A stretch of 64,000 bases of DNA from Whitmania pigra (taxonomy: Eukaryota; Annelida; Clitellata; Hirudinida; Haemopidae): the NCBI GenBank assembly GCA_021613335.1, contig JAJTWR010000231.1, forward strand, positions 1,011,501 through 1,075,500, given 5' to 3'. This document shows positions 188 through 62,416 of the stretch, piece after piece. A program made the position numbers and the translations under genes. Position 1 is the stretch's first letter. Each line of letters starts with the position of its first letter. Below the pieces are notes generated by a model that searched no databases, was not told where the DNA came from, and worked only from the letters and a program-made list of their open reading frames with translations.

Positions 188-1092
188 GTTATGGAAATAT
201 TGCACCGAAAACATTTTGGGGTCGACTAGTCTGCATCGTGTATGCGTTCATAGGCATTCCACTGATGCTAGTTTTTCTTGCAAACATTGGAGGGGTCATG
301 GCGGATGTGTTTCGATTTGTGTATTCAAACCTTTGCTGCTGCGGATGCTTTAATTTGAGAAAGACATCCAACTCCGAGTCAAAGCTGAATCTGACCGAAC
401 AAACTCAGCGTGACACGGAAGATGCGAATGATTTCGACGAGGACGAAGATCAGTTAGGTGTCCCTTTAACTGTAACTCTGGTCGTTGTTGCTGGTTACCT
501 GTTCATGGGGTCGCTGTTGTTTGGTACTTGGGAAAAGTGGACGATGTTGCAATCTGCTTATTACTGCTTCATTACCATCTCGACGATAGGATTCGGGGAT
601 GTGGTGCCTGGAACAGACAACATAAACAGCGCAACGGGACAACTGACTATGATTGGCGCTGCGCTTTATTTAATCTTTGGCATGGCCATCATGTCGATGG
701 CTTTCAACCTCATACAGGAGGAAATGGTCAGCAAATTTATCTGGATATCTGAGAAGTTGGGTGGGTGATCAAAGCAATTTAAATAGGGAAACATTAAACA
801 TTAAACCATTTTGGGTTTGTTTCAATTTATTTGCTTTCGCTTTTTGTTTTTTCTGTATATATAACGGCTTGTTTGTTTGTTTGATTCAATAAACTCATAA
901 ACCAAATATATATATATTGATGCTGAAAATTTTCCAGGACTATCCAAGAAAGACGATGACGAGGAAGAAATTGCATCTAATTCAAAGGTGCCTCATCCTG
1001 GCACTCAAGAACCCAGCACCAGCAGCTTCAAGGATGCAAATTCTTTAACAAAATTTGCGACGGCTGCAATTTCTCAGCCAACGAAGAAATAA
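188..1092 (+). CDS. Two-pore-domain (K2P) potassium channel, 3' part
   Basis: This is the C-terminal half of a K2P leak channel, a plasma-membrane protein that sets resting potential. Coding exons are 188-760 and 938-1092 (TAA at 1090). The first exon opens inside pore 1 at the GYGN selectivity motif. A hydrophobic M2 helix (VCIVYAFIGIPLMLVFLANI), a Cys-rich then acidic loop, M3, the second pore motif TIGFGD and M4 follow. The two separate pore signatures, GYGN and GFGD, in one subunit define the family. The short hydrophilic tail is rich in Ser and Lys and has no domain I recognise. M1 and the start of pore 1 lie to the left: an acceptor AG at 186-187 precedes the exon and the upstream exons are outside the window. 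A possible poly(A) signal AATAAA is at 1176-1181. TWIK/TREK subfamily is not resolved. Confidence 0.9.
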
Positions 1093-1436
1093 AAAGACGC
1101 GAATGACAAACCACAGAAAATCAAATTCCAAAGATTAAATTCATGCTACTTTTTTGCACGATCAAATTCTAAGGAAATAAAAATGTTTTAGTAAAATCTA
1201 AAGTCGGCGTCTGTCTCAATCAATTATCTTATACAAAATATCAGAAAAATTTTCGCCTTGAAATTCATTGGAAAATGTCTGCTGAACATTTGGACGACCA
1301 GACGTAGTTTTGGACGTGCATTCAGACCTTATCGTAAAGTTATTCCTTAATCCCATAATGAAATTAAAATTTCCACCTGTTCATTTTAATTAAACGTTCG
1401 AATGGAGCGATTACTTGGGATGTTTGTTGTACTGCA
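1093..1436. other. K2P 3' UTR and spacer
   Basis: The stretch holds the probable 3' UTR with AATAAA at 1176. I see no other gene or repeat here. Confidence 0.5.
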
Positions 1437-2071
1437 GACCCGTGAGAATAGCCCAGCAACAAAATAGCTCAGGACGAAATAGCCCCGTCAAAATAGCGGT
1501 AAAATTGGTTCATTGTGGATTTGTTGCATGTTCACATGACGTGATGATAAGGTGATTCACTTTGCGTGGCTCGAATATGTTGTACGTCAATCGATAACAT
1601 AGATTAAATTCCAATTCAAACCCTTCATTGTACACATTGCAACGGGAACTCGGGGAAGGATCAACAGAAATTAAACGATCAAAGGAACCTTCGTGACTTA
1701 ATGAGTGTCTGGTAAATTAACTTTGTGCAGATTGCACACGTTGATTGTCAATTGATAATTTATATTAAATACCAACTTGAAAAGTCCATGTAAAGTGAGG
1801 AAGTAGCCGGAATCCTAATAATATTTTAAACGATAAATCTTCCACTTAATGAAATTCCCTGATACAAATTAAACTCAAAACGGTCACAAAAGCATTCAAA
1901 CCACTAACTTCAAATTAAATTCGGAGTCAGTTATCGGTTAATGTATTCAACTCACAAAATTTTTTATAATACATTAATACATTATTTTGTCACTGGGCTA
2001 TTTTGACGGGGCTATATTGACGGGGCTGTTTTTTACGGGGCTGTTTTGGTGGCGGGCTGTTATGGCGGGTC
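1437..2071. mobile_element. TIR DNA-transposon-like element (MITE)
   Basis: The ends are imperfect inverted repeats. The left end reads GACCCGTGAGAATAGCCC, and the reverse complement of the right end reads GACCCGCCATAACAGCCC. Both ends carry further subterminal copies of an AATAGCCCCGTC-type motif, facing inward. A 7-base direct repeat TTGTTGT at 1424-1430 and 2075-2081 could be the target-site duplication, which would make the element 1431-2074. The interior is AT-rich and holds no open frame of note, so this looks like a non-autonomous element of about 640 bp. The superfamily is not assigned. Confidence 0.75.
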
Positions 2072-2830
2072 ACCTTGTTGTGCATTTGGAGAATACATAT
2101 TCGTCATAAGCAATGAAACCTTCTGGCATGCTAAAATCCTTCGATAATTTTGTTCAAATTAAAATTAGAATTAGAATTCAAACGCCTTTTGAGAATTTAG
2201 GTCACAGCGACTCGTCGTCATTTTCGAGCCTCATCACGTATTCCTCTCCAATCAAGATAAATCCGGTCGTTTCCTTGGCATGTTTGCATTCTTGAACTAG
2301 TTTTGTTGAATTTTTATCGAAACTATTTTTCTCCGTCGATGCTATTTGTCACCAATGAATTGCCAAATGAGTTTTTTAAAGTATTATTCAACTTATCAAT
2401 TATTCGAATAATCGATCGACTAATTTAATATCTCCTGGATCATAAATAAACTCTTGTAAATAAATAATAGCAGATTACGAACACACCCGACATATTGAAC
2501 TCATGAGCGCTTGTAATCTTCAATTTGTAGAACAATCGGAAAAACAAACAAAGCCAAAAGAAAGTTCCATCAATATCTCATCGGTCTGTCTGAGAAGAGA
2601 ACCTCTGCACGTGCATTGTGTTGTGCACGTGCATTGTGCATGCTAGTGACGAGAGAGACATCCGGGGGAGAGCGAGGATGAAATAGGAGGCTGCCAACGA
2701 ATTTCTCCTACCGTGTTCTCAGTCGGTTGGGCATCTTGGGAAGTGCATCCAGGGTGATGATAATAATTATGATTAAGTGTTTCTGAACATGGACAATATA
2801 ATATTAAATGAAGTAAAATCCTTCTCAGAA
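2072..2830. other. Spacer and probable tolloid 5' region
   Basis: No conserved coding sequence is seen. A short direct repeat of a GTGCACGTGCATTGTG-like unit occurs at about 2609-2641. The region just before 2831 is probably the tolloid 5' UTR. An upstream in-frame ATG at 2789 would add 14 residues before the hydrophobic signal. Confidence 0.4.
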
Positions 2831-8800: not shown

Positions 8801-9604
8801 CTCAACAAAAGCTGTCTGTGGGTGATAGAAGTCCCAGAAAAATATAACGTCACTTTGACTTTTCAGTCTTTTGAGGTCAGACTTTCATTTTTTATTTCTT
8901 GTATTTGTCGCGCGACATCGACGAAATAAGCTCAATTAACTTTTGTACAACACGCCAATGATTTTGTTTAGCATCTCCAAACCATGACTTCAGCATTATT
9001 TGCAGCTGGAAAAGCACGACACTTGCGTTTACGATTACGTGGAGGTGAGAGACGGTCAGGATGAGACTTCCCCTCTCCTCGGAAGATTTTGCGGCTACCA
9101 TATTCCTCGTAGTGTTCAGTCCACCACCAACAAACTGCTGGTCAAATTCGTTTCTGATTCGTCCATCAGCAAAGAGGGATTTGCGGCCAATTTCATCAAA
9201 GGTTGAAATTTTATAGAATACCGGAAATTAAAAATTAATTTTAAAAAATTAGTTTAGACATTACATGATCCTGTTGCAGCAATGTCTTTATGTGGTCGAG
9301 ATCGCGCATTTTTATTCTCCCCGTTGAAGCCGTTGATAAATCATTATGAACTCCTCTTTGTTTCAGAAACGAATGAATGTGCAACAGGAGAACACGACTG
9401 CGAACAAAACTGCACCAACACGATCGGTGGATTCAGGTGCGAATGCGACATCGGATTCGAACTAAACGCCGATGGAAGGACTTGCAGAAGTTTGTGAAAC
9501 ACGTGTTGCTAACGATGTGAAGTTTTCATTTTTATCAGCTTTCTATAATTGAATAATTTTATGAACGTTTAGGTTGTGCTTGAAAATATTGTGCAATAAA
9601 TGCG

Positions 9605-9638
<34 letters not shown>

Positions 9639-12090
9639 TATTATTATTTATTATTATTATATTATTATTATTATATATTATATTTCTATACAAACAAGAA
9701 ATATTTCTCAGCCGCCTGTGGAGGACACTTAAGCGAAATGAACGGTACATTCCACAGTCCCGGATACCCTGAAACCTATCCCCCGAACAAAAGCTGCACC
9801 TGGCAAATTGTAGCTCCTGAAGAATATCAAATTACAATTGTCTTCAAGGATTTTGATGTTGAAGGAAGCAACGTTAGTTTTCAGTTCCAATGGCTCAAAT
9901 CTGATTTCGCTTGATTTAAGTTTTTATTATTTGCTGTCGAGTGTGCCGTAGAAACAGGAGATCACCTTGGTTACCAATATAGGATTTAAATAAAACCTAA
10001 CAGGTTATTTATTTGATTAAAGTCCGTTGCATGACTAGGATGAAATGGATTAGATACCCAACACTGTGGGATTACATGCTTATTAACTAGCCATGAATGC
10101 CAAAATAATTGCCATATTCATTTTAGCAAGACTGCGAATATGATTTTGTGCAAATCATTAGCGGAGAAGATGAGGATGAAGATGTCTTGGAGACGTTTTG
10201 TGGATCGAACACACCACAATCTATTACCTCGAGAAGCAATTCGTTGAAAGTCGTTTTCAACAGCGATCAAACAGTACAAAGAAAAGGCTTCGATGCCTAT
10301 TACTACACAGGTTGAATGGATGATTGCTAATTGAACTTTTCATCTTAATGTGTCGTGTAAGAATTGTATTTTAAATTCTAAAAGCGAATTTTTCACGTCG
10401 CAGATAAAGACGAATGTGCGCAGAACAACGGCGGATGTCAACATATTTGTACGAACACTGCTGGAAGTTACGAGTGCTCCTGTAACAACGGATACACGTT
10501 GCACAAAAACTTGCACGATTGCAAGGAATGTACGCATCCTTTAAATGCTTTGCTTTAAAATAATCGCCCCAGTCGTCATCTTTTTTCGCGCAACTAGGTC
10601 CGTAATCGTTGGAAATATTTGCAGCCAGTTGCCAATACAATTTAACCGAGCCGTTTAGAACCATAGCCAGTCCCAATTATCCTGACGCATATCCTAGTAA
10701 GAAAAAATGCACTTGGCTTTTCTCAACCTCGCCAGGACATAAAATCAAACTGGTTCGTGGCTTCACAAATACCGTTCGTGTAATATTCACAAGTTGTGAC
10801 ATGCGCTCTGCAGGAGTTCCTCTATTTCGAACTGGAAGCTCACGTCGACTGCTTGTACGACAGGATTGAACTTTACGACGGCAAAGACGAGAACAGTACT
10901 CTTATTGGAAAGTTGTGCAACGTTGTCCTTCCATCCACAATCATGTCAACTGGTCACGTGATGTTCATGGCTTTCATGTCCGACGCTTCTGTACAGAGGA
11001 AAGGATTTGAGGCTGTGCCTTCGACTGGTGATATTTTTAGCTAATTTTCTCTGTGTGCTTTTTCCACTCATTTCTTCAACTCTTCTTTTTTGTGCCATCG
11101 TTATTTGTTCGTTGCTGTCGATGTTAGAAATATTTAAATAATTGCTTACAATGTTTTGGAGGTGAACCTGTAAGGACAATGAGTCTCATAAATCATGTGG
11201 TGGTCAGTTACAGCGTATTTTGCATGAATTTTTATCCTGAGTTTTAAACTTTCTGGAGAAAATAGGCTGGCAAAGCTGACATAAATCGTAAATTTATTTA
11301 TTCAATTGGAATTGCTAGGCCGTGTAAATAGGTTTGAGCGATTAAAACTTAAATTTATATGATTATGAACAGGCAAATGGAATAGATAAACCTAATACAC
11401 TTTCTCAATTTGTTGGGCATTTTGCATATTAATTAGATTAAGCAATTATCGAATATTTGCTCAATGTACAGAGTGCGGCGGAGCTCTAAAAGCTTCAAAA
11501 TCTCCTTCGAAATTCTTTTCTCACTCACAATTCGGGGACCAGAGTTACGACAATAAAGAAAATTGCGAATGGCTGATTACCTCCGAAAATGAACAGTACA
11601 GGGTTCATCTGAGGTTCACCTTCTTTGAACTCGAACAAGCAGATGGCTGTGGGTGAGTAGTCTATCAGAAAGCGCATGAAAATGGAATTCTTGGCTTTAA
11701 ATGAGTTTGTATCCTCAGATATGATTACGTGGACATATATGATGGTCTAACGACAAATAGCACGCATAACTTTCATTTGTGTGGAAACCAGGTTCGATTA
11801 CAATTTTCAATCCCTTTGTTGCACCAAATAATGGATGAAAAACTTGTTGATAACAGATTCCAGGAGATATCATATCAAATGGAACCAGCCTGTTGATTCA
11901 GTTTAAATCTGACGACACAATTGTTTGGAAAGGTTTTGAAATCATGTATTTTCAGAGCAATCTCATGCTGGATGAGCCAATGAAATCTGATAGTTGGAAA
12001 AGACCAAAGAGAGCCCATAAGCGCAACAAAGCTAAAAATTCTACTAGAATAAAGAAGAAATCAAAGAATTTCATAAAATTGCAGCCTTAG
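2831..12090 (+). CDS. tld/BMP1: Tolloid/BMP1-like procollagen C-proteinase
   Basis: Secreted astacin-family zinc metalloprotease. In animals, family members cleave Chordin/Sog to free BMPs and process procollagen. The 19 exons are 2831-2939, 4142-4253, 4644-4750, 4863-4983, 5105-5283, 5390-5626, 5728-5967, 7255-7380, 8730-8875, 9006-9201, 9367-9489, 9712-9872, 10127-10310, 10404-10529, 10625-10752, 10814-11027, 11472-11652, 11719-11791 and 11857-12090. They sum to 998 residues, against 986 for human mTLD. The domain order is signal peptide, prodomain ending in convertase site RQRQRR (after residue 85), astacin domain with [11 protein letters not shown] (179-189) and Met-turn SIMHY, then CUB1, CUB2, EGF1, CUB3, EGF2, CUB4, CUB5 and a Lys/Arg-rich tail of about 40 residues. 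Both EGFs have the calcium-binding DE/NEC start. I chose ATG 2831 because it sits directly before the hydrophobic signal; ATG 2789 is an alternative. No break is seen. Confidence 0.96.
3897..4126. repeat. (GAT)n-type trinucleotide tract in tolloid intron 1
   Basis: This is about 230 bases of GAT/GAC/GCT triplets. It produces long open frames on both strands that encode poly-Asp, poly-Met, poly-His or poly-Ile. It ends about 15 bases before the acceptor AG of tolloid exon 2 (4140-4141), where a pyrimidine tract would normally lie. A second short (ATC)n tract is at about 4308-4337. Confidence 0.95.
5968..8729. other. Two long tolloid introns flanking CUB1 exon 2
   Basis: Both introns, 5968-7254 and 7381-8729, are AT-rich and hold no coding sequence I recognise. 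A (TA)n run sits at about 6121-6146, followed by ATATTTAA-like low-complexity sequence to 6245. Confidence 0.7.
9602..9682. repeat. (ATT)n microsatellite in tolloid intron
   Basis: The tract is a run of ATT/TTA triplets with small interruptions. It ends about 30 bases before the CUB3 exon acceptor and is non-coding. Confidence 0.95.
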
Positions 12091-12807: not shown

Positions 12808-13130
12808 TTACGCTTTCCTCACTAAGATCGGATTGTCAAGCCGAGAGAGAACAAAGGCTATGACAAGGATTCTGGATCTGGCATATGAGAAGCCAGAAGA
12901 AGTCTTAACAGGCCACTACACGAAACCGGGGAAAGCCGTCGGTCTCCGGTATGAATGATCCACCGAACGACGGGGCCAAACCATTGGCCGAGAGACGCGG
13001 TGTTGTCGGGAGAAATGGGCCGACCGCGGACTCGCGAAGCAACATGAACTGCGGTCCAAACCGCGGCTTCGAAAAGGCCCGCGGTCGAGTCCCGAAAATT
13101 TCTATCTCCGGCTGCCGCTACAAAGAAATC
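12808..13130 (+). mobile_element. Retroelement 3' fragment, deleted copy
   Basis: The sequence matches the reverse strand of 63345-63690 nearly base for base, including the end of the coding region (YAFLTKIGLSSRERTKAMTR) and the 3' non-coding part. Relative to that copy it lacks 26 bases after ACAAGGAT, which shifts the frame, so this copy cannot encode the intact C-terminus. Similarity stops after about 13130 (TACAAAGAAAT). GC content is clearly higher than in the flanks. It starts about 90 bases after the SINE. Confidence 0.85.
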
Positions 13131-14813
13131 CGAGGTCAGTCTGTTAGGGCCTAGGCGGTACTCATTACAAATACTCTGACAGGCTGGGATGCTTCCGCCA
13201 AGTGTCGGCCACTTGACACTCGCCAAATGTACCATCCGCTCTCCATTATCCAGACTAAAGCACAGAGTCCAGCGGCTTGATTTACATCAAATATAAATTA
13301 TGCTGTGACTTTAAAAATCATTGCGTGGCATTTGGAAACTGCTGCGCGTAGTTTTCTTGTCTTGCCGCGCAGTGTAGACGGAACGTTGACCACCACTTAA
13401 CTTATTTTCTTACCACCAGCTCCGGATTTAGGGATAGTCGGGGTGTGCCATGCGCATATACATACCTACTTGCGACATAGTATTGTACAATGTACATACA
13501 TGATACTATTAGCACCACCAATTAGCCAGAAAACATTTTTTTGCATAGTTCTTGAACCACCTGCACTGAAGCCTCCACTCACGTAAATCTGGTCCAGCTT
13601 ACCACCAATAACACTCCTGTTGCTTGGGTGAGTTGCCTTGAATGAAACGTTTTGCTTGATCGCAGTATGCCTGTGACTACTAACGGAATTATTCTTAAGA
13701 CTGAATTTTAAAATGAACATACCCTTCATGAGATTGTAAAGCTTTAAAAAACAATTTTGATAAGATTTTTTTCAAAACCTCCCTGTACTGGAGTAGATGA
13801 TCTAGTAGACTACTAGAGTAGTAGAAGCTTGGATTGAGAATAAATGATTTACGACAGTTGGCTTGTCAATTTGCTGAGGCAATAATTAAACAAATGTTTA
13901 TAAAATGTTATTATAATTTGGATTAATCTGACATCATTTGTTTAAAAATATTGAAATGTAATTGATTATGTTAGCTTCTAATTGATGATAATGAGAAATG
14001 ATGAAACACATTTTAATATTTAGTTTGGGTCAAAGCATAAGCAAAATATTTTATCATATCAAACTAATTATCTTTTGTTCCAGTTAAAGACAGTGTTCCA
14101 TTCGGGACAATTATTTCATAGGTTGGAACATTTGAGAGTCCTAGAATTTTGTTTTTACATTTGCAAATTAAACTTAGTGATTTATTATTTATTTTGTTTG
14201 CACCTATAATATGATATGATAAAATGTATTCACTCGGTATTGCATAATTTGTGAATGGAGCTACAGAAGTCATTTTAGCAAAACTGTTCCGTACAGATCA
14301 ATTCTTCCTTACATCTTTTTAAACCATTCCATACTTAATCGAATGCAACGTCATTGCAAATTCTAATTTCTCCAATCTATTTCTGAAATTTGGACAAAGG
14401 CAATTGAACGTCACAGAGGCTCTGGTACATCTGTTGCATCGGTTATTCTGAGCAGAGGACCTGAATGAGGGTTTTTCAAATTTTGCACCGTTTATTCGTG
14501 TTGTTCTAATGTTTATTATCTTCGCTTTAAACGAATAACGACTAAAATTATTCACCAGTTTTAAAATCTCAACAGTTATTAATAATTAGAAATTTAAATT
14601 TTATTATTTTTACAACATTGTTAGAGTCATTTGAATAAAAATTTTGTTTATGGATACTTCAGCAGTCATAATTTTTATTTAATTTGTTGCTACTTTTACA
14701 GTGTGTAACTCCCTTTGTTTTGATACATTTGTTCCCGCTCCAAATAATAGGATTTTTATTGGCGGTGCGGTTTCATTTGGTTGGTGACGGGTTCTGGACT
14801 CCATCCTGCTGAT
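13131..14813. other. Spacer before SUZ12
   Basis: AT-rich DNA. Several anonymous reverse-strand open frames of 69-88 codons (13466-13729, 14064-14273, 14319-14555) show no domain I recognise. In-frame TAG at 14748 precedes the SUZ12 start. Confidence 0.4.
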
Positions 14814-19182
<4,369 letters not shown>

Positions 19183-20757: not shown

Positions 20758-23232
20758 ATGGAGGACATAGTTGCAAATACCTCTGACATCTATTTTACTA
20801 TTGAAAAAGCATTAGATATGCAATTAGGAGCCCAACCTTTACCATTTCCCGGAATGGACAGTTAGTTACTTTCTGGTGCTACGATCCATAAACCTAAGTT
20901 ATGATTCGTTGTTTCTTATGCTATTACGTAGAAGGGATCCTTAACATGCAATATAAGTCAAGTGATTGGTTACTTTGGTAGTGCTGTGGCTTAACACTAA
21001 TTAAGTTAAGGGCAATTTCCTCATAATTATTAAAACTTTACTTTTGTTACCAACATTTTGTAAGACCAGTTAATTTTAAATTAGTTTAGATATTTATTAT
21101 GTTCATCTACATGTGAACTCATATTTGTTGCAAATTGAGAGCAATCTCATTTGAGTGATTTTTGTTTTAGAATCTGGAGCTGCTATATGTTCTTTTTTTT
21201 TGACAAATTCATGTGGACGAGGTGCAAATTGTCCTTACCGACATGTAAGAGGTGATCGGTCAGTAGTTTGCAAACATTGGCTGAGAGGGCTTTGCAAAAA
21301 AGGAGACAATTGCGAGTTTCTGCATGAATTTGATATGGAAAAAATGCCTGAATGTTACTTTTATTCACGATTTGGTGAATGTGGCAACAAGGATTGCCCT
21401 TTTCTACACATTGATCCAGAACACAAAGTCAAACCTTGTCCATGGTATGACAGAGGTTTCTGTAGGCATGGTAGGTGTTACTTTCAATTTTTGTTAAGTT
21501 AATCGTTGTTATTAAATTATTTCATTTTCATTGAAATTTGTGTTATATAAAACATTGACTAAATACTAATATAACCTAAATGATTCTACAAGGTATTAAT
21601 TTAAATTTAATATTCTTATAAGATACTAGCTGTTCTACCCGGCGCTGTTCGGGTCGAAGCAGAATAGTTTATGTGAGAATATATATAATTATATTGGAGA
21701 ATTTATTTTACATACCAATTATGATAGGTTAGTCTTTCTCGTGATGAGGTTTATGCTTTTCTGGGGTTTTTCGGCTCATCTTGATGCTTCTCTTACTCGA
21801 TTTTGTTCTCTTCATGCATTGGCATTGTCGGCCGCGTTGAGGAATCTTTGGACGACTCATTGATCTTCAATGTCTTCTTTTCTTGGTGTTCTGGCTTTAT
21901 CAAATCAGAAACTTCTATTGGAATGGATCAAAATGAATTAAAGATATTTTGCTTATTTATGTCCAAAGTTGCAATGGTAAAAATAGACCGAATGTCTGAA
22001 TTAATCCGATGAAAATGCCATAAATTACTTTATGAATAGTAGCATATTGTACGATATGCTTAGAGCACTGCAAATAAACTTCAATTATATTTTTTTATGA
22101 GGTTATAATTAAATTGTGGCAACCATTTTATCAAATCAAGTGCTATACATACTTATCCATGCACCCATATGGTGTAATGGGTAATACACTCCATTATTTT
22201 ATTCATCATAAACTCTTTGAACACACAGAGACATTTGATTTTGTATATATAGATTAACATAAATTCAATAAATTACAGGCGCTTCCTGCAAAAATCGTCA
22301 TGTGAGAAGAGTGCTATGCACAAATTATTTGTGTGGCTTTTGCATTGAAGGACCAAGCTGTAAATATGTTCAGTGAGTATCGTTGCAAATCTTTTAAATC
22401 ATCCACATTTATTATCATTTGTCATATACTTTTTAAAGAGTTGATAATAGTAGTGGAAACTGTTGTGTCCGCATGCACTAAGCACACTATTCAAGTTCTG
22501 AAGTTTTGCCTGTTTCTGAGTTTGTTTCCATTGTATTAAAAGTTATTCAGATTTGTTTGATTCCAAATTTTCTGCTGTCGAGTTTAACTTACAAATACAA
22601 CAGAACGACGTTATCTCGACGTTGTTTAACCTGCCAACCCTATTAAGTCGACTTTTTTTTAAAGTGGAAATGTCTAATTCCTTCTTTTTCATAGCATTTT
22701 CCATTTTTTTATGTTGATTCTTTTATTCTTTTTTTTCAATGTAAGTTAAGACTTTGTTTTTTGCAGTCCAAGATTTGAGCTTCCTATCTTTGACAACAAT
22801 TCTCAGAGTTTAAAAAAAAGCTCGATAACATGTCATCATTGTGGTGAAGTGGGACACAAGGCAGCATCATGTCCTCTCCTCGTGCCTTCGATAAGAGACG
22901 GCTCTTCGGCCAATGACACCCCACGACCCATCCCAAAACATGACCTAAGACCCTTAGATCAAGTCACCTGTTATAAAGTGGGTAAATCAGTGTCTATAAA
23001 TTAGAGGAAACATTAATTTTATTTCATTATTAGCTTATTAATGTGATATTCATTAATGTTTTTTGTAACTTGTATAGGTTTGTATAGATGTTATTTTGTA
23101 ATCTGTATGTTATAAACATTGTAAATAAGCTTCATCGTATTTCTGCAGTGTGGAGAGAAGGGTCACTATGCCAACAAATGTACTCGGGGCCATTTGGCTT
23201 TCCTCTCCAAGAAATCCAATGAATTGCAATGA
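20758..23232 (+). CDS. CPSF4: CPSF 30-kDa subunit, CCCH zinc-finger protein
   Basis: CPSF4 recognises the AAUAAA signal within the nuclear cleavage and polyadenylation complex. Exons are 20758-20860, 21171-21470, 22279-22372, 22767-22977 and 23149-23232, for 263 residues (human 269). The N-terminus ends in QLGAQPLPFPGMD, as in vertebrates. Five CCCH fingers follow, including VVCKHWLRGLCKKGDNCEFL and MPECYFYSRFGECGNKDC; finger 4 is split by intron 2. The C-terminal half carries two CCHC zinc knuckles, CHHCGEVGHKAASCP and CYKCGEKGHYANKC; the intron before the last exon lies inside the second. Mammalian CPSF4 has one knuckle and fly Clipper two, so this is the two-knuckle form. The ATG fits the conserved N-terminus exactly. 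The protein ends HLAFLSKKSNELQ. Confidence 0.96.
21615..21700 (+). repeat. Dispersed repeat end with CCCGG...CGGGT hairpin
   Basis: ACTAGCTGTTCTACCCGGCG followed by CTGTTCGGGT resembles the ACTAGCTG...CCCGGCGTTGCCCGGGT ends seen at many invertebrate repeats. A related stretch is at 44230-44265. It lies within CPSF4 intron 2. The element class is not known from this sequence. Confidence 0.5.
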
Positions 23233-24805: not shown

Positions 24806-28407
<3,602 letters not shown>

Positions 28408-33254: not shown

Positions 33255-36200
33255 CTATGGGGGAAAAGAGGTTGGGTTTAAATCAGAAGGCAGAGTCATC
33301 GAGAGTGAAGTCAAATTAGAGTGAACATCATCATGCCTTCCTCTGTCATGGCGTGACTTCTTCGAAGATGAGGATTGCTCGGACTTTCTTTTTTTTGGAT
33401 GTTCATTGCTTGATTCACTCAAATTTGATATCTCAGGCCCCATAGGGACATTAAACTGGGTTTGTTGGTAAAAGTTGCCATGCATATCTTTACCAATTTT
33501 CATTGTCAATCGCTCCTTGATGGGTTCAGAGTTAATTGTATTTTCTATCATTTTATCATCTGGCTTTGGAATTTCTTTTATTCTGAGCTTGAATTCTTCT
33601 GTAGAGTTTGATGAAACAAGTGATGGTAATTTAATCTTCACAGGAAGGACCTTTTTGGAATGTTCCTCTTTGAAATCTCTATTATGTTTGGATTTCTTTT
33701 TATGTTTGTGCTCACTTTCCTCATAATGTTTTGATTTTTCTTTTTTATGCTCTTTCGGCAATTTTTCTTTTACATACTCATCCCTCTTAGAGTCGTTATG
33801 GTATGAAATGGCAAAAGGTATGGGATCTGAAACCTTAGGAGGTATAAACTGTTTACTGTCGATAACTGAGGTCATTTGAGAATAGTTATTGTAATGTTTG
33901 TAAGGGCCTTCTAATTTTTGAATAGAATTAACTTGATGGGGATGAGAGGTTAAAGGCCAAGTTTGTTGCTCAATTTTTGTTTTCTTCTGGTCGTGCAGGG
34001 CAGGTAAAGCATGAGGTTTTTCAGTCTTGATTTTAGTTTCGGGCGGAAGAGGTACTGTAAAACCAGACTGAGTTGATGGTACTCTAGCTGGAATTTCTAT
34101 CTGCGATAACTTTAGGGGATCTTGAGCAGATCTATTTGAGTTATCCATATGGTCAAATGATTTTGCAACTGGCTTCAATTTCTTTATCTCAGCAGCTACT
34201 GATGTAACTGCAGATTTGTTATCACAGTGCTTGAGAGACATGCTTCCATTTTGATGCTCAGACATTGCCAATGCAGAACTACCTGGCCTTCTTTGCGAAG
34301 TTGCATGTGAAATCGGAGTTATGTGGGCAGATGAAGATGATCTTTGATCACTGTGACCATCCTTTGTAGCAGGCTAATACAATAATGAAAAAAATCATAT
34401 AAATAATAATGTTTTTGTTGTGAAACATATAGAAATATCAAATTGCCATTCATTTTTGTAAATTTGTTGAATAGCTTAGTTTTAATAAATTGCTGTTTTA
34501 TATCATAAAGCCTTTAAAGCAACAAGCTTCTACTCTTCCACACTAATGATAATAGTTAACCAATAAGTTAGAAAATATAACTAATATTCAAGCATTAAAA
34601 ACAATGTTACATTTAAATATAAATTTAGTTAACAATTGCTCTCAAAATAGATGTCAATGATAACCACCATTTGCTAACCTTTATGGATTTCTTCTTAAAG
34701 AATTTAGTCTGGTATGTATTGATAGATGCTGATAATTCATTTGATAATGCTGAAAACCGAATATTGCAAAAGAGTTGTTTGATGGAAGGCAGTGATTTAT
34801 GGAAATTACCTTGAAGTTTTTCCACTGTTATGTTTGAATCTATACGCTTGAACCACTCCTTTCCATCCTCGGGAGTTTGTATCTGATGACCAAACATTTG
34901 CAAACTGACTGACAAATTGCATATCCACATTTCCATAAATTGACCAACCTCTAGACCTGCCCACTTCCATGCTGTCATAATACAAGCACAAGCTACAATG
35001 GTCGATGGATGTTGGATGCACATCATAGTTGTGAACAAACTGATGGTATAATTGAAAGTTCAGCATTCAAATGATGTGTCTGCGATGAAATTAAAATACC
35101 TTGCAGACGCAAGTAAATATGAGGAGTGTGAAATCTCTTTCGAAGCTGAAAATAATAACATTAAATAATCTTAAATATAAAGAAAACAAAATAAATAAAC
35201 AACTCACATATGCAAGCAAAACCATTGCAAACAACATAACATGCCATCCCCTCTGGAAAGAAATGTAAAAGATGGTACCTTTCATATATGAGCATGTCAT
35301 CAAGATGAGAGAGTGAGGATGCTCAACTACTGTCTCGAATCCTGATCACGAGGCATTCCGCACATAATAATCATTAAATAGTTAGACCTTCGTGACTTGT
35401 GAATTCCAAAAACCTCACCTAGTGTTCCGAGAAGTATCTGTTCATTATCATAGATCTCTTCCATCATGTCTTGAATCCCCTGTGTTGTCATTATGAATTC
35501 CCAATATTGTGCTCCTTATCTCAAAAACACTCACACATTGTCACCTTATACAAACCTTATTCTTGCTGTCACTGGATATGCTATCCTTGTAAATTTGATA
35601 GAGGGCTGTCTTTGCAACATGTTCAACTTTACGATGTTGATCCTCAATTTTTGCTGCTAAGAAGAGACAGGCAGCTGACATAGTCTGACAATGAATATTT
35701 AGAAGCATGCTGTATTAGCCCAACAGGAATGCAAATTAAACCATGCACAATTGTAATTCTACGACCAGATTCCCGTAACACTCATGCACTTCTTACAAGA
35801 TCTCTATATTCTAAATTCTAAAACCAAAGGCTCTAGTGGATCAAACTCAAACACAATCATTAAAAGAAGAACCATTATGCAGTGATTGTTTACATATCAC
35901 TTCACAGCTTTTGACTTGTGATAAATGAAATATGAAATACACTTTACAGAGAGTGTAATTTGCTCAACAGTAACTATGGTGTCTTAGAAAAAGCATTTAA
36001 AGTAAAAAAACAATGAGTAAAAACACGACTAATTCAGATGTCAATAAAATGCATTATGAAGACAGATGAAGAACTGATATTCACAAAGCACATGAAATTA
36101 GATGGCAGATACAACAATTAGAACGAACAATTAATATATTTAATCGTGTGGCAGTTTCTCGAATACTTAATTTGCAAAGAAACACTCCTGATTCTCCAGC

Positions 36201-36668
36201 AAAATACTGTAAAGCTTTTGACTTATAACTTAAATAAAAATTACATCGTAATTATCAATGAGAAGCAACCTTGTATGGAAACTTTGAGAAAGCTCGCTTT
36301 GTGTAAAATCGATGCATGTACACAATGCCTGTGTTTATACACAACTGATTCCTAAAATAAACATGATACACTTCAAACAAACTATAAATAATATAGTGAA
36401 ACACAACAATTTATCCATGAGGCTAATATCCTCTATGTTTGCTTCGACAATATGGTAATATGGCAATCTAGATTGCATGAATTTTCAGACTAGCTTCTAA
36501 TAAACAAGGCCAAAAAACTAACAAGTTGAGTTTTTCGCCTAGTTCTTGGATCATCAAAGCCGAATTGTATCTTAAATTCATTTCCTCTCCCCTAGATAAA
36601 CCGTCGAATTTGTTGGGTGTCGTCTTCAACTCTTCATCGCTAAATATCCATCTACGAACGGCTTCCAT
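33255..36668 (-). CDS. CCNT: Cyclin T (P-TEFb cyclin), copy A
   Basis: Cyclin T is the regulatory partner of CDK9 in P-TEFb, which releases paused RNA polymerase II. Exons from the 5' end are 36523-36668, 36270-36351, 35556-35684, 35419-35479, 35279-35341, 35100-35145, 34949-35039, 34810-34882, 34679-34749 and 33255-34373, for 626 residues. The N-terminus is MEAVRRWIFSDEEL, like human RWYFTREQL. Cyclin-box blocks seen are INTGIVYMHRFYTKRAF, SAACLFLAAKIEDQHRKVEH, HPHSLIL and STIVACACIMTAWKW. The long last exon encodes a Lys/His-rich stretch (HKKEKSKHYEES, HKHKKKSKHN), then VKIKLPSL-type repeats, comparable with the His-rich C-terminal half of cyclin T. An upstream in-frame ATG at 36716 is less likely. 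Copy B lies 3 kb upstream of the start. Confidence 0.92.
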
Positions 36669-42600: not shown

Positions 42601-43338
42601 CATGTCAAAGTAACTAACATCTTAATATAAAGAGCTTGACATTTTGAAGTATTTGGGACAATTTGGTATGGTAACATTCATTTTAAAGTGATATTTGTCA
42701 TCACAACAATTTGACCTTAACATAAAGCAGTAGCAATGCAATAAAAAATTTAAAACCGGAGAACAAAAATTTGTGTCAAGTTCTTTTTTTAATGGTCCTG
42801 GTATTTTTGACTCATTGATTGTTGTGCTTGACAATCATATGTCCTAATTTGAAAATATTCAAAGTCAAATTAAAATCAAAACCCACCTTATAAGAAAACT
42901 TTGCAAAGGACTGCTTAGTATAAAACCTATGCATGTACACAATAGCAGTGTTTATACTGAGTTGATCCCTGCAATATCAACGAATTGATATGAGTCAATG
43001 GCATTGCTAACTGCATTTAATTGGAGACAAGTAAAATGTAAAAACCTGTCCTTCTGTCAAGTTCACAGAAGTCAGTTAAAGTCAAGATTGATTCACAATG
43101 AAAAGCAATATTACACCCAACGTTTCGAGCAAACAAGTTTAAACATTACTCATTCTTACAAGGCTTTTCCATAAATTAGTTACAAAACTAACAAGTGAAG
43201 CCTATCGCCAAGCTCTTGTATCAATAAGGCTGACTTGTATCTCATCTTCAACTCTTCGTGCTCTGACAATCCACTCAATCTATTTGGCGTATCCTTCAAC
43301 TCTTCATTACTGAACAGCCAATTGCTTGAGATATCCAT
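39603..43338 (-). CDS. CCNT-like: Cyclin T paralogue, copy B
   Basis: Tandem paralogue of the gene at 33255-36668. Exons from the 5' end are 43193-43338, 42887-42968, 42024-42152, 41877-41937, 41705-41767, 41461-41506, 41312-41402, 40926-40998, 40790-40860 and 39603-40718, for 625 residues. The first nine exons have exactly the lengths of those in copy A (146, 82, 129, 61, 63, 46, 91, 73, 71). Blocks match: MDISSNWLFSNEEL, INTAIVYMHRFYTKQSF, TVACACIMVARKW, SEQQNGSLPFKYSDNKSAV, HKKEKSKH. The third exon is much less conserved: LFLAAKIEDQHRK in copy A is LMVSARILYQYQT here, changing the Lys and the acidic pair of the cyclin-box core. The tail ends in a Pro-rich FPSDVAPPPLQ, recalling the PPPLP end of human cyclin T1. 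An upstream ATG at 43428 is possible. Confidence 0.9.
42492..42511. repeat. (TA)n microsatellite in cyclin T B intron
   Basis: A pure TA run in the intron between the second and third exons of copy B. Confidence 0.9.
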
Positions 43339-52000: not shown

Positions 52001-52689
52001 TTTACATTCGGTCGTTTAGATTCATCCACTGGTGAATAAGACAATCGACTTCTTCATCTCCAGGGCTAGAGCAGCAACAGCGACTGATATCAAAATAATT
52101 TAATCAATTAATTGATTGATATAATTTTACTTTTAATTTAAACGACTCTTAAACAAGTGATATTAGAGTGACCATCATTATTGTAGTATATACCAGTGCA
52201 AGTTAGCCGCAACAGGAGTAAATGGACGACATATGGTGGCTTATAAATCTTCCAATGGGACTGGTCAGGATGCCGAGGTGGATTAGTGCCTCTAATGTGT
52301 TGTCATCATCTCATTACAAAGTCATCGTCGTCGTCGTCATCACTTCATCGATAATCAAAAGGAATTTTTTGTTACGTTCCTGTGAAATACGCCTAAGTCG
52401 GAACAAGAAAAAAGAAATTTATTTAATTATTGATTCAACAATAAAGTATTTAATCTGTAATTGTTTTATAGTATTATTGGTTAAATTAATATCATTACAT
52501 TCGCTTACTATAATAGAAAATTATTGTAAATAATCATTTTTCGGCCATTAGATGCATATCCATGCATGTGCAACAATGTTTCCAAGCTCCCGTTTGTGTG
52601 ACCATATCTTATAATGATAACAATATAATTAATATAATTAATGATAACAACAACGATAAATAATAATGGTAATAACAACAAAAACAACG

Positions 52690-52710
52690 ACGACGACGAC
52701 GATGATGATG

Positions 52711-52761
<51 letters not shown>

Positions 52762-52778
52762 TAATAATAATAATAATT
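52690..52778. repeat. (ACG)n/(ATG)n/(AAT)n microsatellite
   Basis: Triplet runs CGA, then TGA, then a long AAT tract. The poly-Ile frame on the reverse strand is an artefact. Confidence 0.95.
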
Positions 52779-54134: not shown

Positions 54135-56885
54135 ATGGAAGAGGCTTGTGGAGTATTTGGATGCATAGCTTCTGATTCTTGGCCCACCTCTCTTGATGTT
54201 GGCCAAAAAGTTGTCCATGGACTGATGGGTCTTCAACATAGGTTATTTTCAAAATTAGTAATTGCGTAATTACCACAGTTATATCATAATCACATAATTC
54301 GATACGCATGATGTTTTAGAGGTCAAGAAAGTGCAGGCATTGTCACAAGTTTTGGATCGGATCCCTCTGATCTCTACCAACATAAGGGAATGGGCATGGT
54401 TGATAATGTGTTCAAAGAAACCTTTAATTGCCTTAAGGGAAACATTGCTCTAGGTAAGGTGATGATTTAATTTTTAAACAGTCTTATTTGGGAAACTAAA
54501 ACTTATGATTCAATGGTATATTATGATATTGATTGCATTTCTCTAACTTACAGGTCATGTTAGGTATTCAACAGCTGGATCATCAAGTCTCATCAACTGT
54601 CAACCTTTTGTCTCTGAAACAAGTCATGGCAAATTTGCTGTGGCACATAATGGTCAACTCATTAATGCTCAATCACTCGATCAAGAGGTTACATTAATTT
54701 CTCAATTAACTGGAATTATTAATTCACTTGAATACTCGTACTAACTCACTACGTTAAATTGACCTATAAATTAAAATATAAATCATGAATACTGCACAGG
54801 AATGATTTGTTGATGCATTTTATGTAACTTTTAATTAGCTCAGGAAGCTAGGCTTTAATCCAGTTAGTAGTTCTGACACTGAGATTATATCTTGGTTGTT
54901 GTCTCAATCTCCATGTCAACAAGAGGAAGCTGATGAACCAAATTGGGTTGCAAGGTATTTCAAATAGATTGTAATTTTAACATTAATTTATTTGAGTAAA
55001 TTTGGTGCTAAATGTGTAAAACAGCGAAATTAAGACAATTTGACTACGGAAATATGTTCAATAAATCATACTTTTTGTCTTGACAATCATGATATAAATA
55101 AGGAATAAATAAATAAATAAGCAAGTTTGGGCATGTTAACCTTGAATCATAAGGCATCAGCTATTCAAACTATTCAATTGGCCATACATCTTTTCATGTT
55201 TCCTATATGACAGAATACAAAATTTCATGAAGCTTTCTCAACTTTCATACTCCTTTGTGATCATGTACAAAGACAAGCTCATAGCAGTTAGGGATCCATT
55301 TGGCAACAGGCCTCTTTGTATTGGAAGGATATGTAACAGTCAGGGGCAGGGTAAGTATTAATAATGTGAGTTTTACTCTAGTCGATCAGAGTTATTGATT
55401 GACATAAGATGTGTGATCCTCAGGCTGGGTGGTCTCTTCTGAATCTTGTTCATTCCCATCAGTTGGTGCAAAGTTCCACAGCTTTGTCAAGCCAGGTCAG
55501 CCATTTTTTATTTTAATAAATTTATAGAGGCTTTTTTAACCTTGCATTAGTTTTTTTAGTAAATCGATTGTTTTTATTTAAGGTGAAATTGTGGAAATAA
55601 AACGTTCTGGAATTCAGTCTTTATGTTTTGTTGGGAGACCAAATTCGAAGCCTCCAGCATTTTGTATATTTGAATATGTTTACTTTGCAAGGCCTGATAG
55701 TTTTTATGAAGGTTTGTCTCAATTAACTAGCTAAAAAAAAAGTAATATTTAAAAAAATATTTAAACTAGTTTAATGAAAACCAATTTTAATTGCACATTG
55801 TTTTGTTATAATTTATGCAACATTTGAATAATCACAGGACAGTCAGTTTATTTGGCAAGAGAAACATGTGGCAAGAGATTAGCCATCGAATTCCCTGTTC
55901 CTGACGCTGATATCGTCAGTAACATTCCTGAGTCAGCTACATTTGCTGCCATAGGGTACAGCAAACAGGTAGAAATGTTTGCTTTCCTATTAAATATTGT
56001 TTAAAACATAAATATTTAAGAATTTGAGGATTTTCATGTGTCAAGTGAAGTGCATTTGTTGGATACTCATAAAATCTTAGAATTTGAAAGTTTTCTTTAT
56101 GATAAGTAATATAAAATTGAAAAAAGGTTAGATGAGGATTACCATGAGAGCTGAGAAAAATTTTAGTAACAGTCTCTCACATATATTATTGTATTTGAAA
56201 CTTCAGCTAGGCGTAAAGTACCAACATGTATTTTACAAAAATGGACACATTGGTCGTTCATTCATCCGTCCTACTCCCGAATCGAGAAGGCTTGCAATTG
56301 CCATGAAGTTTGGTGTTTTGACTGATAATGTCAGAGGGAAAAAGATTGTTTTGGTGGATGACTCTATTGTCAGAGGAAGCACTATAGAGCCAGTGATCAA
56401 AATGCTCAAAGAGGCAGGGGCACTCCAGGTAATTTTTCTATGCTGAGCATTTACGAAAATCAGATTCAATTGCTCTACTCTTTTTGTTTCGATTAAAGTA
56501 TAATCAAACTCTCTTGCTCGGATTCAGGTTCATGTGCGCATTGCTTCTCCGCCCATCAAGCATCCCTGTTACATGGGCATCAATATATCATCCAAGGAAG
56601 AGCTCATTGCTAACAAAATGTCACTTGAAGAATTTGAGACATCTATTGGTTATTACAAATACTTTCAGGATGATGTTTATTTGTGACTTGGAGTTAATGT
56701 TTACCTCAATGGTAAAATTTCTTTGATATATACGTGCGTGTTAAATTATAGATGCTGACAGTGTTAGATACTTGAGTCTTGAAGGCCTTGTGGATAGCGT
56801 GACACCGGCCGAGCCTGCCCAAAGCGATGGAGGGTACTGCACTGCATGCCTCACTGGTCAGTATCCTGTGGAACTGGAATGGTAA
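54135..56885 (+). CDS. PPAT: Amidophosphoribosyltransferase, copy A
   Basis: Catalyses the first committed step of de novo purine synthesis: PRPP plus glutamine to 5-phosphoribosylamine, in the cytosol. Exons are 54135-54241, 54320-54453, 54554-54687, 54839-54954, 55214-55350, 55424-55495, 55583-55711, 55838-55968, 56207-56428, 56528-56648 and 56752-56885, for 478 residues. After a four-residue propeptide (MEEA) comes nucleophile Cys5 in [23 protein letters not shown] and AHNGQLIN complete the glutaminase domain; the PRPP motif is [15 protein letters not shown]. Four Cys matching the Fe4S4 ligands are present ([29 protein letters not shown]). Human PPAT has a longer insert before HCTACLTG that is absent here. 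ESATFAAI replaces the usual ESATPAA. Poly(A) signal AATAAA at 57449. Copy B follows 2 kb downstream. Confidence 0.96.
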
Positions 56886-58916: not shown

Positions 58917-61900
58917 ATGGAGGAGGCTTGTGGAATATTTGGATGTGTGGCTTCTGACCCATGGCCCACTTCTCTTGATGTTGGTCAAAAAGTTGTCCAT
59001 GGGTTGATGGGTCTGCAGCATAGGTAGTATTCATAGGCGTTATTCTAAACTTCGACCCTAATTTACTTATCAAATAATATCTTTATTATGATCAAACACC
59101 TCTGTTACAGAGGCCAAGAGAGTGCAGGGATTGTCACAGGTTTTGGATTGGATCCATATGATCTATTCCAGCACAAGGGAATGGGCATGGTAAATCATGT
59201 ATTTAGGGAAGCTGATGGGCCTTTTAATGGAAATCTAGCTTTAGGTAAGATAAGCATTTAAATCTTTATGGTTTTTAGCTAAATATTATTAAATGATGCA
59301 TTTTTATTGAGGTCATGTGAGGTATTCAACAGCTGGATCTTCAAGCATTGTCAACTGCCAGCCTTTTGTTGTAGAAACTCTCCATGGCAAGATTGCTGTT
59401 GCTCATAATGGACAGCTCATCAACACTGTGCCACTAAAGCAAAAAGTGTGTTGTACAGTTAAAGCAATGAATAAATCAAACTGAGTTATGCATGCATGTG
59501 ATGCTTGGAAGAATTGTATTCCAGCCACAAAAGAATGCAGAGAAAAGAATTATTTTAGAACTCTTGCTTAATCATACATATATGTGTAATTAAATATTTG
59601 GTAAAATATGAAAATAATTTAAATGAAAAATTACATATTAATATAATTATGTAATTATTATTTTAATTAATTTATAAAATAATTATAAATAATTGCACAT
59701 TAGTATGATTATTTATTCATTAATATTAATTATATTGTTAAATACATCTAGCTATTGAAGCAAGGAATTGGTCTCACAACCAGTTCTGATACTGAACTCA
59801 TCACTCTTTTGCTGTGTCAACCACCATCCCTTGAAGATGAAGTCGACGAACCAAATTGGGTTGAAAGGTTGCCCCTGCTGTCATTTGCAGGATCGTGATG
59901 ATCAGTCAAATATAAATTTTAAATTATATTTTATCAGAAATTCAGCCATAAATTTCAATGAATATGGTTTGATTTATTTACTATCAGAGATAATCATTTA
60001 CTTACCATCTATGATCCTGAAGTTTAGGCAATGATGCAAGCCAGATGAACATGATGCTCTATTGTTGTTTTCAGGAACGATGCGATATAAACTAATCGGC
60101 TCCATGAGCTGGAATTTTAATGTGATATAATTTAAATATTACATAAAAGCCACAATTTTTTAATCACTTTTTAATCATTTAAATCTGTATTTTAATAAAT
60201 GGCAGGATACAAAATTTCATGAAGCTTTCTCAACTTTCATACTCCTTTGTGTTCATGTACAAAGACAAGCTCATAGCAGTTAGGGATCCATTTGGCAACA
60301 GGCCTCTTTGTATTGGAAGGATATGTAACAATGAAGGGCAAGGTTAGTGTAATGAATTTTAAGTGATTAAAAGTCTATTGTAACTTTGGCAGTAACTATT
60401 TTTAGGTTGGGTGGTCTCTTCTGAATCATGTTCTTTTCCATCAGTTGGTGCAAAGTTCCACTCCTATGTGAGAGCAGGTTGATGCTGGGTTTTGGTGTAT
60501 TTATTTCAATACTTTTGAATATTTAGTTAATAAAACCTGAGTTATGTTAATTAACCTCAAGGCGAGATTGTCGAAATAAAAAGTTCTGGCATTCAGTCCT
60601 TAAGTCTTGTTGGGAGACCAGAATTGAAGCCTCCAGCATTTTGTATATTTGAGTATGTTTACTTTGCAAGGCCTGACAGTCTTTACGAAGGTTTGTTTTA
60701 ATAGTTTTGCATGTTATTTGTTTATAAATAGAGTTTCTTTTGTTTATCAGAGTATAGTTTTGTTTTCATTATTGAGGCCCAAACATTGGATTCTAAAAGA
60801 ATATAATTCCATTTTAATTTAGTAAACACTGTACAAGACATCATTGATATTATTTATAACTATATTTGCAAAGCTTTTCTTAGCTTATTTATGATCACAG
60901 GGCAGTCTGTTTATTCGGCAAGGCTGAGATGTGGAAGGAGGTTAGCAATCGAATTTCCTGTTGCTGATGCTGATATTATTAGCACCATACCTGAATCAGC
61001 AACCCCTGCTGCCATTGGTTACAGTGATGAAGTTTGAACTTTTGATGTTAATTGCTGGGATACCTGTGCAAAATTCGTATAATGATTATTATGTAATGGC
61101 TGTCAAATGCAAAGTGATGTGTTTAAAATAAATACTCTCATGCTTTGATAATACCAGAATACTTTTATTGTTAAATGACATAGATTATTATTATATATAA
61201 GTATATAATCTATTGTGAGGCTTCTGTTAATCAGCTAATGTTAATTAGATTTTATTGATATTTTTCAATCAGTTTACTCCAAATTTAAAAAATCTTGTTT
61301 AAATTTAAACGATGCGCTAGTATTTTTTTATTAATCATGTAATATTTTGTTACACACATACTTTATAGTTGGGCATAAAGTATCGATCCGTTCTCTTCAA
61401 GAATGGTCATATTGGTAGAACATTCATTCGACCCACGCCAGAGTCAAGAAAACTTGCAGTTGCCATGAAATTTGGAGTTCTTGCCGACAACGTTGTGGGT
61501 AAGAAGATAGTGTTGGTCGATGATTCTATTGTCAGGGGAAGCACCATTGAACCTGTGGTGAAATTGCTTAAAGAAGCTGGTGCTGCACAGGTAACCATAA
61601 TAAAGTTTATAAATAAATGGTTTTCCATGAAGTTTTCCCATTGGAGAACTGAAACTGAAATATCAATATGTTTTTTCTATTTTATTATTTAGTGATTGTG
61701 AAATTTTTGAGAAAGTCTAAAATTAAATGAGCAAAGCAAAAGCTATGTTGAGTGTTATTTGCTTGTTTGCCCCAGGTTCATGTGCGTATAGCTTCTCCCC
61801 CCATTAAGCATCCCTGCTACATGGGTATCAATATGCCCACCAAAAAGGAGCTCATTGCAAACAAGATGTCTCTTGAAGAACTAGAAGTCCATGTGGGTCA

Positions 61901-62416
61901 GTTATTTTTTTAGGATTATTTTATAAGATTTTTTTATATTATGTTATTATTATTAGGCTTAATTAACTATTTTAAATTTTATGATTCTGAATTTGGTGAT
62001 TGTTACTAAATTACATTATTATTTGTTCATAATTTAGACTCTTAAAAAATATGTATATCTTATACTTTTGAGAGTTTTTAAGATTATTTTATTAAAATAG
62101 TAAGAAAGATTCTTCAATAATGTTTTGTTAATTTAGAATGAATTCAGTAAGGATGTTCTACAACAATATGATAATAATAGTGGGAAATGTTTATATATTT
62201 TGCAAGATTTTGATAAGCATTACTGTTAAGAATTAAATATAATGTAAAGGATGTATGTCCACCAATTTTTTCTAAATTTCAGGTGCTGATAGTATCAGAT
62301 ACTTGAGTATTGAAGGTTTGGTGGAAAGTGTAGCACCAATTGAACCTGGTCAAAGTGATGGTGGATACTGTACTGCCTGCCTCACTGGTAAATATCCCAT
62401 GGAACTTGACTGGTAA
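58917..62416 (+). CDS. PPAT-like: Amidophosphoribosyltransferase, copy B
   Basis: Tandem paralogue of copy A. Exons are 58917-59023, 59111-59244, 59312-59445, 59752-59867, 60206-60342, 60406-60477, 60562-60690, 60901-61031, 61369-61590, 61776-61896 and 62283-62416. All 11 lengths equal those of copy A (107, 134, 134, 116, 137, 72, 129, 131, 222, 121, 134), giving 478 residues. Nucleophile Cys5 ([10 protein letters not shown]), [30 protein letters not shown] and the four Fe-S Cys are kept, and ESATPAA is canonical, so the enzyme looks active. Exon 5 is almost identical to that of copy A although the other exons differ more. The exon 8 donor is GTTTGA, and reading through it meets TGA at the second codon (61035). 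AATAAA at 62486. Confidence 0.94.

Follow-up and report, generated by a model that had tools for sequence, protein, structure and literature searches.

The introns of the annelid Whitmania pigra carry T at the third base of the 5' splice site (+3; U in the transcript) as a regular alternative to A and G, and the same genome holds a minor class of U1 small nuclear RNA (snRNA) genes with the complementary base, A at position 6 (hereafter A6), opposite that site. The donor shift first came to notice in a 64,000-nucleotide stretch of contig JAJTWR010000231.1 (assembly GCA_021613335.1, positions 1,011,501 to 1,075,500, forward strand), called here the window, and is confirmed to extend beyond it. 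The explanation we place first, at slightly better than even confidence, is a divided U1 pool in which the A6 class serves the +3U donors.

In this lineage the third intron base has ceased to be confined to A or G, and U is a regular third choice, taken in ~30% of the introns checked. Under a division of the pool, the bulk of the U1 genes, which have the usual ACUUACC core, would read GURAGU donors, and the minor full-length class (ACUAACC) would pair with GUUAGU-type donors, restoring the base pair at +3. We infer transcription of U1-A6, its assembly, and its use at +3U donors; its presence would then have let these donors spread.

Introns were placed with a spliced protein-to-DNA aligner that takes GT as donor (with GC penalised) and AG as acceptor and is blind to the base at +3. 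Each donor was forbidden in turn and the loss of score recorded, which separates forced placements from loose ones; a placement passed the filter if the score fell by 8 half-bits or more and no fewer than 8 of up to 20 flanking residues were identical. With the Capitella PPAT protein as query, the aligner placed 20 introns in the two PPAT genes of the window, identical to their placement by hand. Outside the window, the sample was drawn from enolase, aldolase, RACK1, METTL16, LUC7L, U1-70K, U1A, VCP, EEF2, PRPF8, and GAPDH, on 16 other contigs. Dropped before counting were five partial U1-70K rows (the full ones being used instead), a TMEM50A alignment that was not credible, the tolloid gene's 5' portion (before position 4700), the first intron of cyclin T copy B, whose placement is doubtful, and a GC intron in the intronless U1-70K copy. 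The filter then rejected 35 of the 184 remaining intron rows.

In the 149 introns that passed, the +3 base is A in 58, C in 11, G in 32, and T in 48. T at this position makes up a few percent of donors in well-studied animals. An earlier note on this DNA, made from its letters, had put GTT at the donor of about 31 of some 86 window introns, and our recount (32 of 79 unfiltered, 21 of 57 filtered) bears this out. Outside the window, +3T is found in 27 of 92 filtered introns (29%, 95% confidence interval 20–40%) and in 29 of 105 unfiltered ones; with the two U1-70K genes removed the filtered count is 19 of 80, so the window is somewhat richer in +3T than the outside sample. A stricter filter, applied to the first batch, leaves 24 of 73. 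In PRPF8, which is 86–90% identical to the typed human protein, 4 of 10 introns have +3T, and of the 11 introns of VCP, three have +3T and three +3C.

All 13 GTT donors that the note had named were reproduced by the +3-blind aligner, and 10 of them pass the filter (Table 1); those at 11792, 15501, and 16057 reappear without being forced. The sharing of such donors between tandem paralogues, which it had also reported, stands for exon 7 of both PPAT genes (55712, 60691) and intron 1 of both cyclin T genes (36522, 43192), but at cyclin T intron 7 the donor of copy B (41311) is poorly constrained, with a score drop of 2.0. Its contention that these donors are not frame-fitting errors holds, the shift being present on the 16 other contigs as well.

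The remainder of the donor is G at -1 in 77% of the 149 introns, A at +4 in 60%, G at +5 in 71%, and T at +6 in 62%, the commonest hexamers being GTAAGT (15), GTTAGT (14), GTGAGT (10), and GTTTGT (7), with GTCAGT at 3. The U12-type motif RTATCC is seen in none of the 149 in its GTATCC form, ATATCC lying outside the aligner's donor model. Nor is there sign of non-GT/AG splicing of the Fritillaria type, as GT/AG models give full proteins, for example PPAT copy B and PRPF8, under an aligner that penalises GC and disallows other ends. The strength of the rest of the site averages 3.90 for +3T donors, 3.71 for +3A, and 4.09 for +3G (T versus purines, p = 0.89). Since +3T sites are not compensated elsewhere in the donor, U at +3 looks acceptable in itself, and this, with the 16 other contigs, supports the earlier note's reading of relaxed or altered donor recognition.

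Two further observations concern these introns. The intron-bearing U1-70K genes (L042/L062 on contig C43 and L063/L045 on C332) have +3T in 8 of 12 introns, whereas the remaining genes sampled outside the window have it in 19 of 80 (p = 0.005, the paralogues not being independent), a richness that is perhaps a feedback on U1 supply. At the other end of the 149 introns, the acceptors are CAG in 96, TAG in 42, AAG in 10, and GAG in 1 (e.g., the PPAT introns starting at 55496, 60478, and 59245); the share of AAG seems high, and recognition of the 3' splice site may be relaxed too.

The whole assembly (178 Mb, 381 contigs) was searched for the RNA that reads the donor. The Rfam U1 model (RF00003) found 42 copies with 42 of 2270 candidates scored, which makes at least 42 U1 genes a lower bound. 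By their first 12 bases these genes divide into AAACTTACCTGG (18), ATACTTACTTGG (16), ATACTAACCTGG (6), ATACTTACCTGG (1), and AAACTTACCTTG (1). Six of the at least 42 model-confirmed genes start AUACUAACCUGG, with A at position 6, the position that faces donor +3, so that the two changed bases, in U1 and in the donor, are complementary. These six lie on C110, C184, and C332 (one each) and on C369 (three), and match the model over its full length (positions 1–166) at 132–148 bits, the gathering score being 69.5. A degenerate 20-base pattern run genome-wide, which let positions 2, 5, 6, and 9 vary fully and position 11 partly, gave 60 sites (2 for the reversed control), 59 of them U1-like; 41 of the latter are among the 42 model-confirmed genes, and the other 18 fall outside the model-scored set. 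The sites comprise AAACTTACCTGG (31), a class with C-to-U at position 9 (20), A6 (6), ATACTTACCTGG (1), AAACTTACCTTG (1), and one of unrelated appearance; as the pattern recovers just six A6 sites, there is no further A6 site of the pattern's form. Position 5 is invariant among the U1-like sites although the pattern left it free. The position-9 change, which faces donor -1, occurs in a tandem array of 17 (G000 C350:118392-124835) and on C71, C110, and C332, and A at -1 is found in 20 of the 149 donors.

The A6 genes keep what would be expected of working U1 genes. A consensus fold over 21 U1s, all six A6 among them, has double compensatory changes at 14 of 43 pairs. All six retain GATCA..AAGG, ATTGCAC, and ATTTYTG, the U1-70K loop, U1A loop, and Sm site, respectively, where we take the two loops to be those bound by the U1-70K and U1A proteins. 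An ACACC or ATACC element stands 45–66 bases upstream of 40 of the 42 genes (at -56 or -57 in 39), including all six A6, and in 0 of 41 control stretches further upstream; from its position, this element is probably the proximal sequence element. In a tree of U1 bodies with the first 12 bases removed, the A6 end appears in four clades and requires four changes (at least three forced by well-supported branches), and the position-9 end appears in three clades with three changes. A single cluster on C332 holds four U1 genes with four different 5' ends. Such a spread may reflect repeated origin, or bodies homogenised within clusters while their ends were kept apart; either would point to use, without proving it.

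The predicted pairing energies agree with the division. These are calculated for naked RNA, without pseudouridine or U1C, and the mean duplex of a donor with its best U1 comes to -8.24 kcal/mol for +3A, -8.54 for +3G, and -6.87 for +3C. For +3T donors, the mean is -5.44 kcal/mol if A6 is withheld and -7.58 if it is included, and A6 is the best-pairing class for 39 of the 48, a result that follows largely by construction. A stronger version of the divided pool, which we advance tentatively and at rather less than even odds, is a donor code with two readers, in which parallel U1 small nuclear ribonucleoproteins (snRNPs) recognise GURAGU and, by way of an A6 end that arose repeatedly or passed between U1 clusters, GUUAGU, with the consequence that a base held to be invariant in animal U1 genes, and almost so in donors, would now regularly take either of two states.

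Several results weigh against a divided pool. The share of A6 among the U1-like sites (6 of 59) is below that of +3T among donors. Support is weak on 14 of the 32 inner branches of the body tree, where the A6 label shows hardly any clustering (26 of 500 shuffles score as low). The donor change is not specific to the complementary base: T and C at +3 stand at 48:11 as against 129:43 at +7/+8 (p = 0.38), in keeping with the intron background, and +3C donors, which A6 cannot pair, occur too (11 of 149). If donor positions were independent, the expected counts among -AGT hexamers would be 15.6 for GTAAGT, 12.9 for GTTAGT, 8.6 for GTGAGT, and 3.0 for GTCAGT; the observed numbers fit, and with GTTAGT at 14 no separate donor class stands out. 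Between paralogous introns, purine and T at +3 are discordant in 11 of 28 pairs, where 12.7 would be expected at random. The one hint that T and C donors differ is at +4, where +3T would put up with a poor base and +3C would not: A at +4 accompanies 24 of 48 +3T donors versus 9 of 11 +3C donors, a trend only (p = 0.09). Other positions are held between paralogues more firmly, G at -1 being discordant in 2 of 32 pairs (11.3 expected) and +4 to +8 showing intermediate behaviour (9 to 11 discordant versus 13 to 16 expected). Near-random interchange together with a T:C ratio at background implies that +3 is close to free between purine and T; no result indicates a preference there for T over C beyond composition.

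These same features are what one would expect of a general relaxation, a serious rival to which we attach somewhat better than a one-in-three chance. Here the demand for pairing at +3 would have weakened, through U1 proteins, the hand-off to U5/U6, or weak selection, and the base would have drifted toward intron composition so that T and C both rise, with A6 incidental. Both the background-like T:C ratio with its +3C donors and the absence of excess GTTAGT and near-random paralogue interchange favour it, as do the extra copies of U1-70K (3 genes), U1A-like (5), and U1C (3), one U1C copy having an altered N-terminal loop. What it leaves unexplained is the same position-6 change in four clades of U1 bodies that are otherwise kept. 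In addition, no U1 class pairs at +3 with +3C donors, and these are scarcer than +3T donors, though in line with composition; their predicted best duplex is weaker than that of +3A or +3G donors, and the rest of their sites is not significantly stronger (p = 0.13). As far as the sequences go, the variant U1s may cause the relaxation or may merely accompany the donor shift.

The U1C genes (L030 and L031 at C89:1520358 and 1522376, and L067 on C235) comprise one with introns and two intronless neighbours in opposite orientation. One intronless copy differs from the typed human protein at 10 of its first 34 residues, including T11, Y12, T14, and H15, and the intron-bearing copy at 2; the changed N-terminal loop presumably sits near the U1–donor duplex. 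Because other genes also have intronless copies, we do not count this divergence as U1-specific, and the multiplication of U1 proteins was likewise set aside as a U1-specific sign, several of the copies being intronless and perhaps a product of general retrocopying. VCP has eight copies on C11 and C177 (e.g., C11:717158), each a single uninterrupted match of ~770 codons at 78% identity, beside an intron-bearing gene at C11:658788-661778, and EIF4A has several single-match copies as well. The genome seems rich in retrocopies.

That abundance of apparently intronless copies lends some substance to the view that the A6 genes are silent or are pseudogenes and that the donor shift has another cause, as does the fact that U1 pseudogenes are common in animals. 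We nonetheless regard it as unlikely, at about one chance in five, since none of the six A6 genes is shortened and each retains the fold, the loops, the Sm site, and the upstream element, and damaged snRNA copies in this genome look different (U6-like and U2 copies that bear deletions or have lost the 5' end). Among the eight U2 copies examined as a control, the main class reads GTAGTA, and the rest, apart from one class on C75, are truncated or broken. At the site that recognises the branch point, this second class (L059, C75:3178) reads GTAGTT rather than GTAGTA.

A change on the U6 side, whether in the ACAGA box or by loss of METTL16 or SNRNP27, appears improbable. Switches at donor +4 of this kind are documented in yeasts (PMC10581693). 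In W. pigra, on the other hand, U6 gives four matches (48 of 15330 candidates scored), and the single intact one keeps ACAGAGA within TACAGAGAA; METTL16 aligns along the entire typed query of 293 residues, identity at the SNRNP27 C-terminus is 62%, and A is retained at +4 as given above. Among the matches listed, METTL16, SNRNP27, and PRPF8 have at least one copy each and LUC7L at least one or two. The U6-like copy L018 carries ACAAAGA, a sequence that would pair with +3U, but part of its internal stem-loop is missing and it was discounted as a pseudogene; L019 and L020 likewise seem damaged. The earlier note had pointed to U1, U6, U1C, and METTL16 as places to look; the intact U6 and METTL16 proved ordinary, and U1 and U1C yielded the position-6 class and the divergent extra copy.

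That the shift is an artefact of introns misplaced onto the plentiful GT words of a T-rich genome is hardly credible: background T does reach 42–44% at +7/+8, so misplaced donors would look like +3T donors, but the median loss of score when a filtered donor is forbidden is 24 half-bits (23 where the donor has T), T persists under the stricter filter and in PRPF8, and the PPAT copies agree in their exon lengths.

The window itself is AT-rich and holds genes for tolloid/BMP1, SUZ12, CPSF4, Ras, SEC22, UQCRH, two cyclin T, an Otp-like homeobox protein, and two PPAT, named by alignment to typed references except for the homeobox gene, which was recognised by eye. A scan of the window gave no Rfam family at gathering score and no tRNA. 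Along its entire length, the protein of PPAT copy B shares 59% identity with Capitella PPAT, and copies A and B match in the lengths of exons 2 to 10. The best full-length protein match stands at 59% among the 120 listed of 8000 scored, and in a PPAT tree the sequence falls on a long branch with no clear placement. A dispersed repeat at 12861-13286 and about 63321-63602 shares a translated stretch on opposite strands, and the adjoining open reading frame at 63567-63998 resembles, by eye, the end of a retroelement protein. Elsewhere in the assembly, four COX1-like genes (C115, C49, C360, and C47) have no stops in the standard code, two of them within stretches of 59–60% GC; they are probably from bacterial associates or assembly contaminants, and no mitochondrial COX1 was recognised among the COX1 matches examined.

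Table 1. Donors with T at +3 in the window, with the score lost on forbidding each and the identity of flanking residues, followed by the two PPAT genes (positions in the window).
Feature	Gene	Position	Strand	Score drop (half-bits)	Flanking identities	Remark
GTTGAA	tolloid/BMP1-like	9202..9207	+	42	10/19	
GTTTGT	tolloid/BMP1-like	9490..9495	+	26.5	10/20	
GTTGAA	tolloid/BMP1-like	10311..10316	+	28	11/20	
GTTCGT	tolloid/BMP1-like	10753..10758	+	12.5	8/20	
GTTCGA	tolloid/BMP1-like	11792..11797	+	38.5	5/20	fails identity filter
GTTTTT	SUZ12	15501..15506	+	6		fails filter
GTTTGT	SUZ12	16057..16062	+	4.5		fails filter
GTTATT	SUZ12	18435..18440	+	42.5	9/20	
GTTAGA	SUZ12	18693..18698	+	38.5	13/20	
GTTAGT	CPSF4	20861..20866	+	43.5	18/20	intron part fully complementary to A6 U1 5' end
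GTTTTA	Ras	26474..26479	+	65	20/20	
GTTAGT	Ras	27888..27893	+	24.5	16/20	
GTTGGT	cyclin T copy A, intron 7	34943..34948	-	24.5	9/20	
GTTGCT	cyclin T copy A	36264..36269	-	17	8/20	
GTTAGT	cyclin T copy A, intron 1	36517..36522	-	19	10/20	
GTTAGT	cyclin T copy B, intron 1	43187..43192	-	14	12/20	same site as copy A
GTTATT	PPAT copy A, intron 1	54242..54247	+	27.5	15/20	copy B: GTAGTA
GTTTGT	PPAT copy A, exon 7	55712..55717	+	28	14/20	
GTTATT	PPAT copy A, last intron	56649..56654	+	24.5	10/20	copy B: GTCAGT
GTTGCC	PPAT copy B	59868..59873	+	16	8/20	copy A: GTATTT
GTTAGT	PPAT copy B	60343..60348	+	18.5	12/15	copy A: GTAAGT
GTTGAT	PPAT copy B	60478..60483	+	27	12/20	copy A: GTCAGC
GTTTGT	PPAT copy B, exon 7	60691..60696	+	19	15/20	as copy A
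GTTTGA	PPAT copy B	61032..61037	+	28	10/20	copy A: GTAGAA
Gene	PPAT copy A	54135..56882	+			10 introns
Gene	PPAT copy B	58917..62416	+			10 introns; clean 478-residue protein

Taken together, the donor and U1 data suggest that the rule for marking introns has widened in this genome with a matching change in the RNA that reads it. U1 is usually held to be too constrained to follow a change in donors, and the papers on a tunicate and on yeasts report that donors changed and U1 ends did not (PMC13326754, PMC10581693). A genome with a donor shift at one base and a matching base in U1 makes the role of the U1 repertoire in setting the donor code directly testable. There is also a practical consequence, as gene finders that assume GTR donors would misplace about one-third of the introns in such a genome.

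Variant U1 snRNAs are already known, but our searches of the open-licence literature turned up neither an animal U1 carrying A at position 6 nor a common class of +3U donors, nor any animal U1 variant that matches a donor shift. In the planarian Schmidtea mediterranea, U1C1 and U1C2 are variant U1 snRNAs with a change in the recognition motif and are enriched in neoblasts (PMC6312358). Theirs is a C-to-U change of the same kind as at the 20 position-9 sites described here; it faces -1 rather than +3, and the passages on these RNAs mention no donor shift. Human vU1.3/4 and vU1.8 are expressed U1 paralogues, one of them bearing C-to-T in its recognition domain, and their knockout affects splicing (PMC13172311); their expression is less than one-fourth that of U1, however, the change could allow AT donors, and the relevant passages describe no matching donor class genome-wide. 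The diplonemid S. specki possesses an additional U1 whose altered 5' end has been discussed as a way of adapting to degenerate donors, but this is a protist in which a stretch of C replaces the conserved 5' end, and pairing with the donor logo is given as comparable to that of normal U1 (PMC12621601).

Relaxed donor rules have been met in animals as well. Fritillaria borealis combines them with duplicated splicing factors, although the passages that treat the cause place the change in U2AF and m6A, and its two U1 versions share identical 5' ends (PMC13326754). In the copepod Eurytemora affinis, unusual GA and GG donors are common (~12% of introns), yet the sole intact U1 reported there has an ordinary 5' end (PMC5714493). 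A further parallel comes from the Saccharomycotina, in which lineage-specific donor shifts at +4 are tied to METTL16 and SNRNP27K and a pseudouridine-to-adenosine change in U1 (position 5) is raised as a possible compensation (PMC10581693). In the part of that work that bears on U1, ACUUACC is invariant in all candidates, whereas in W. pigra ACUAACC exists.

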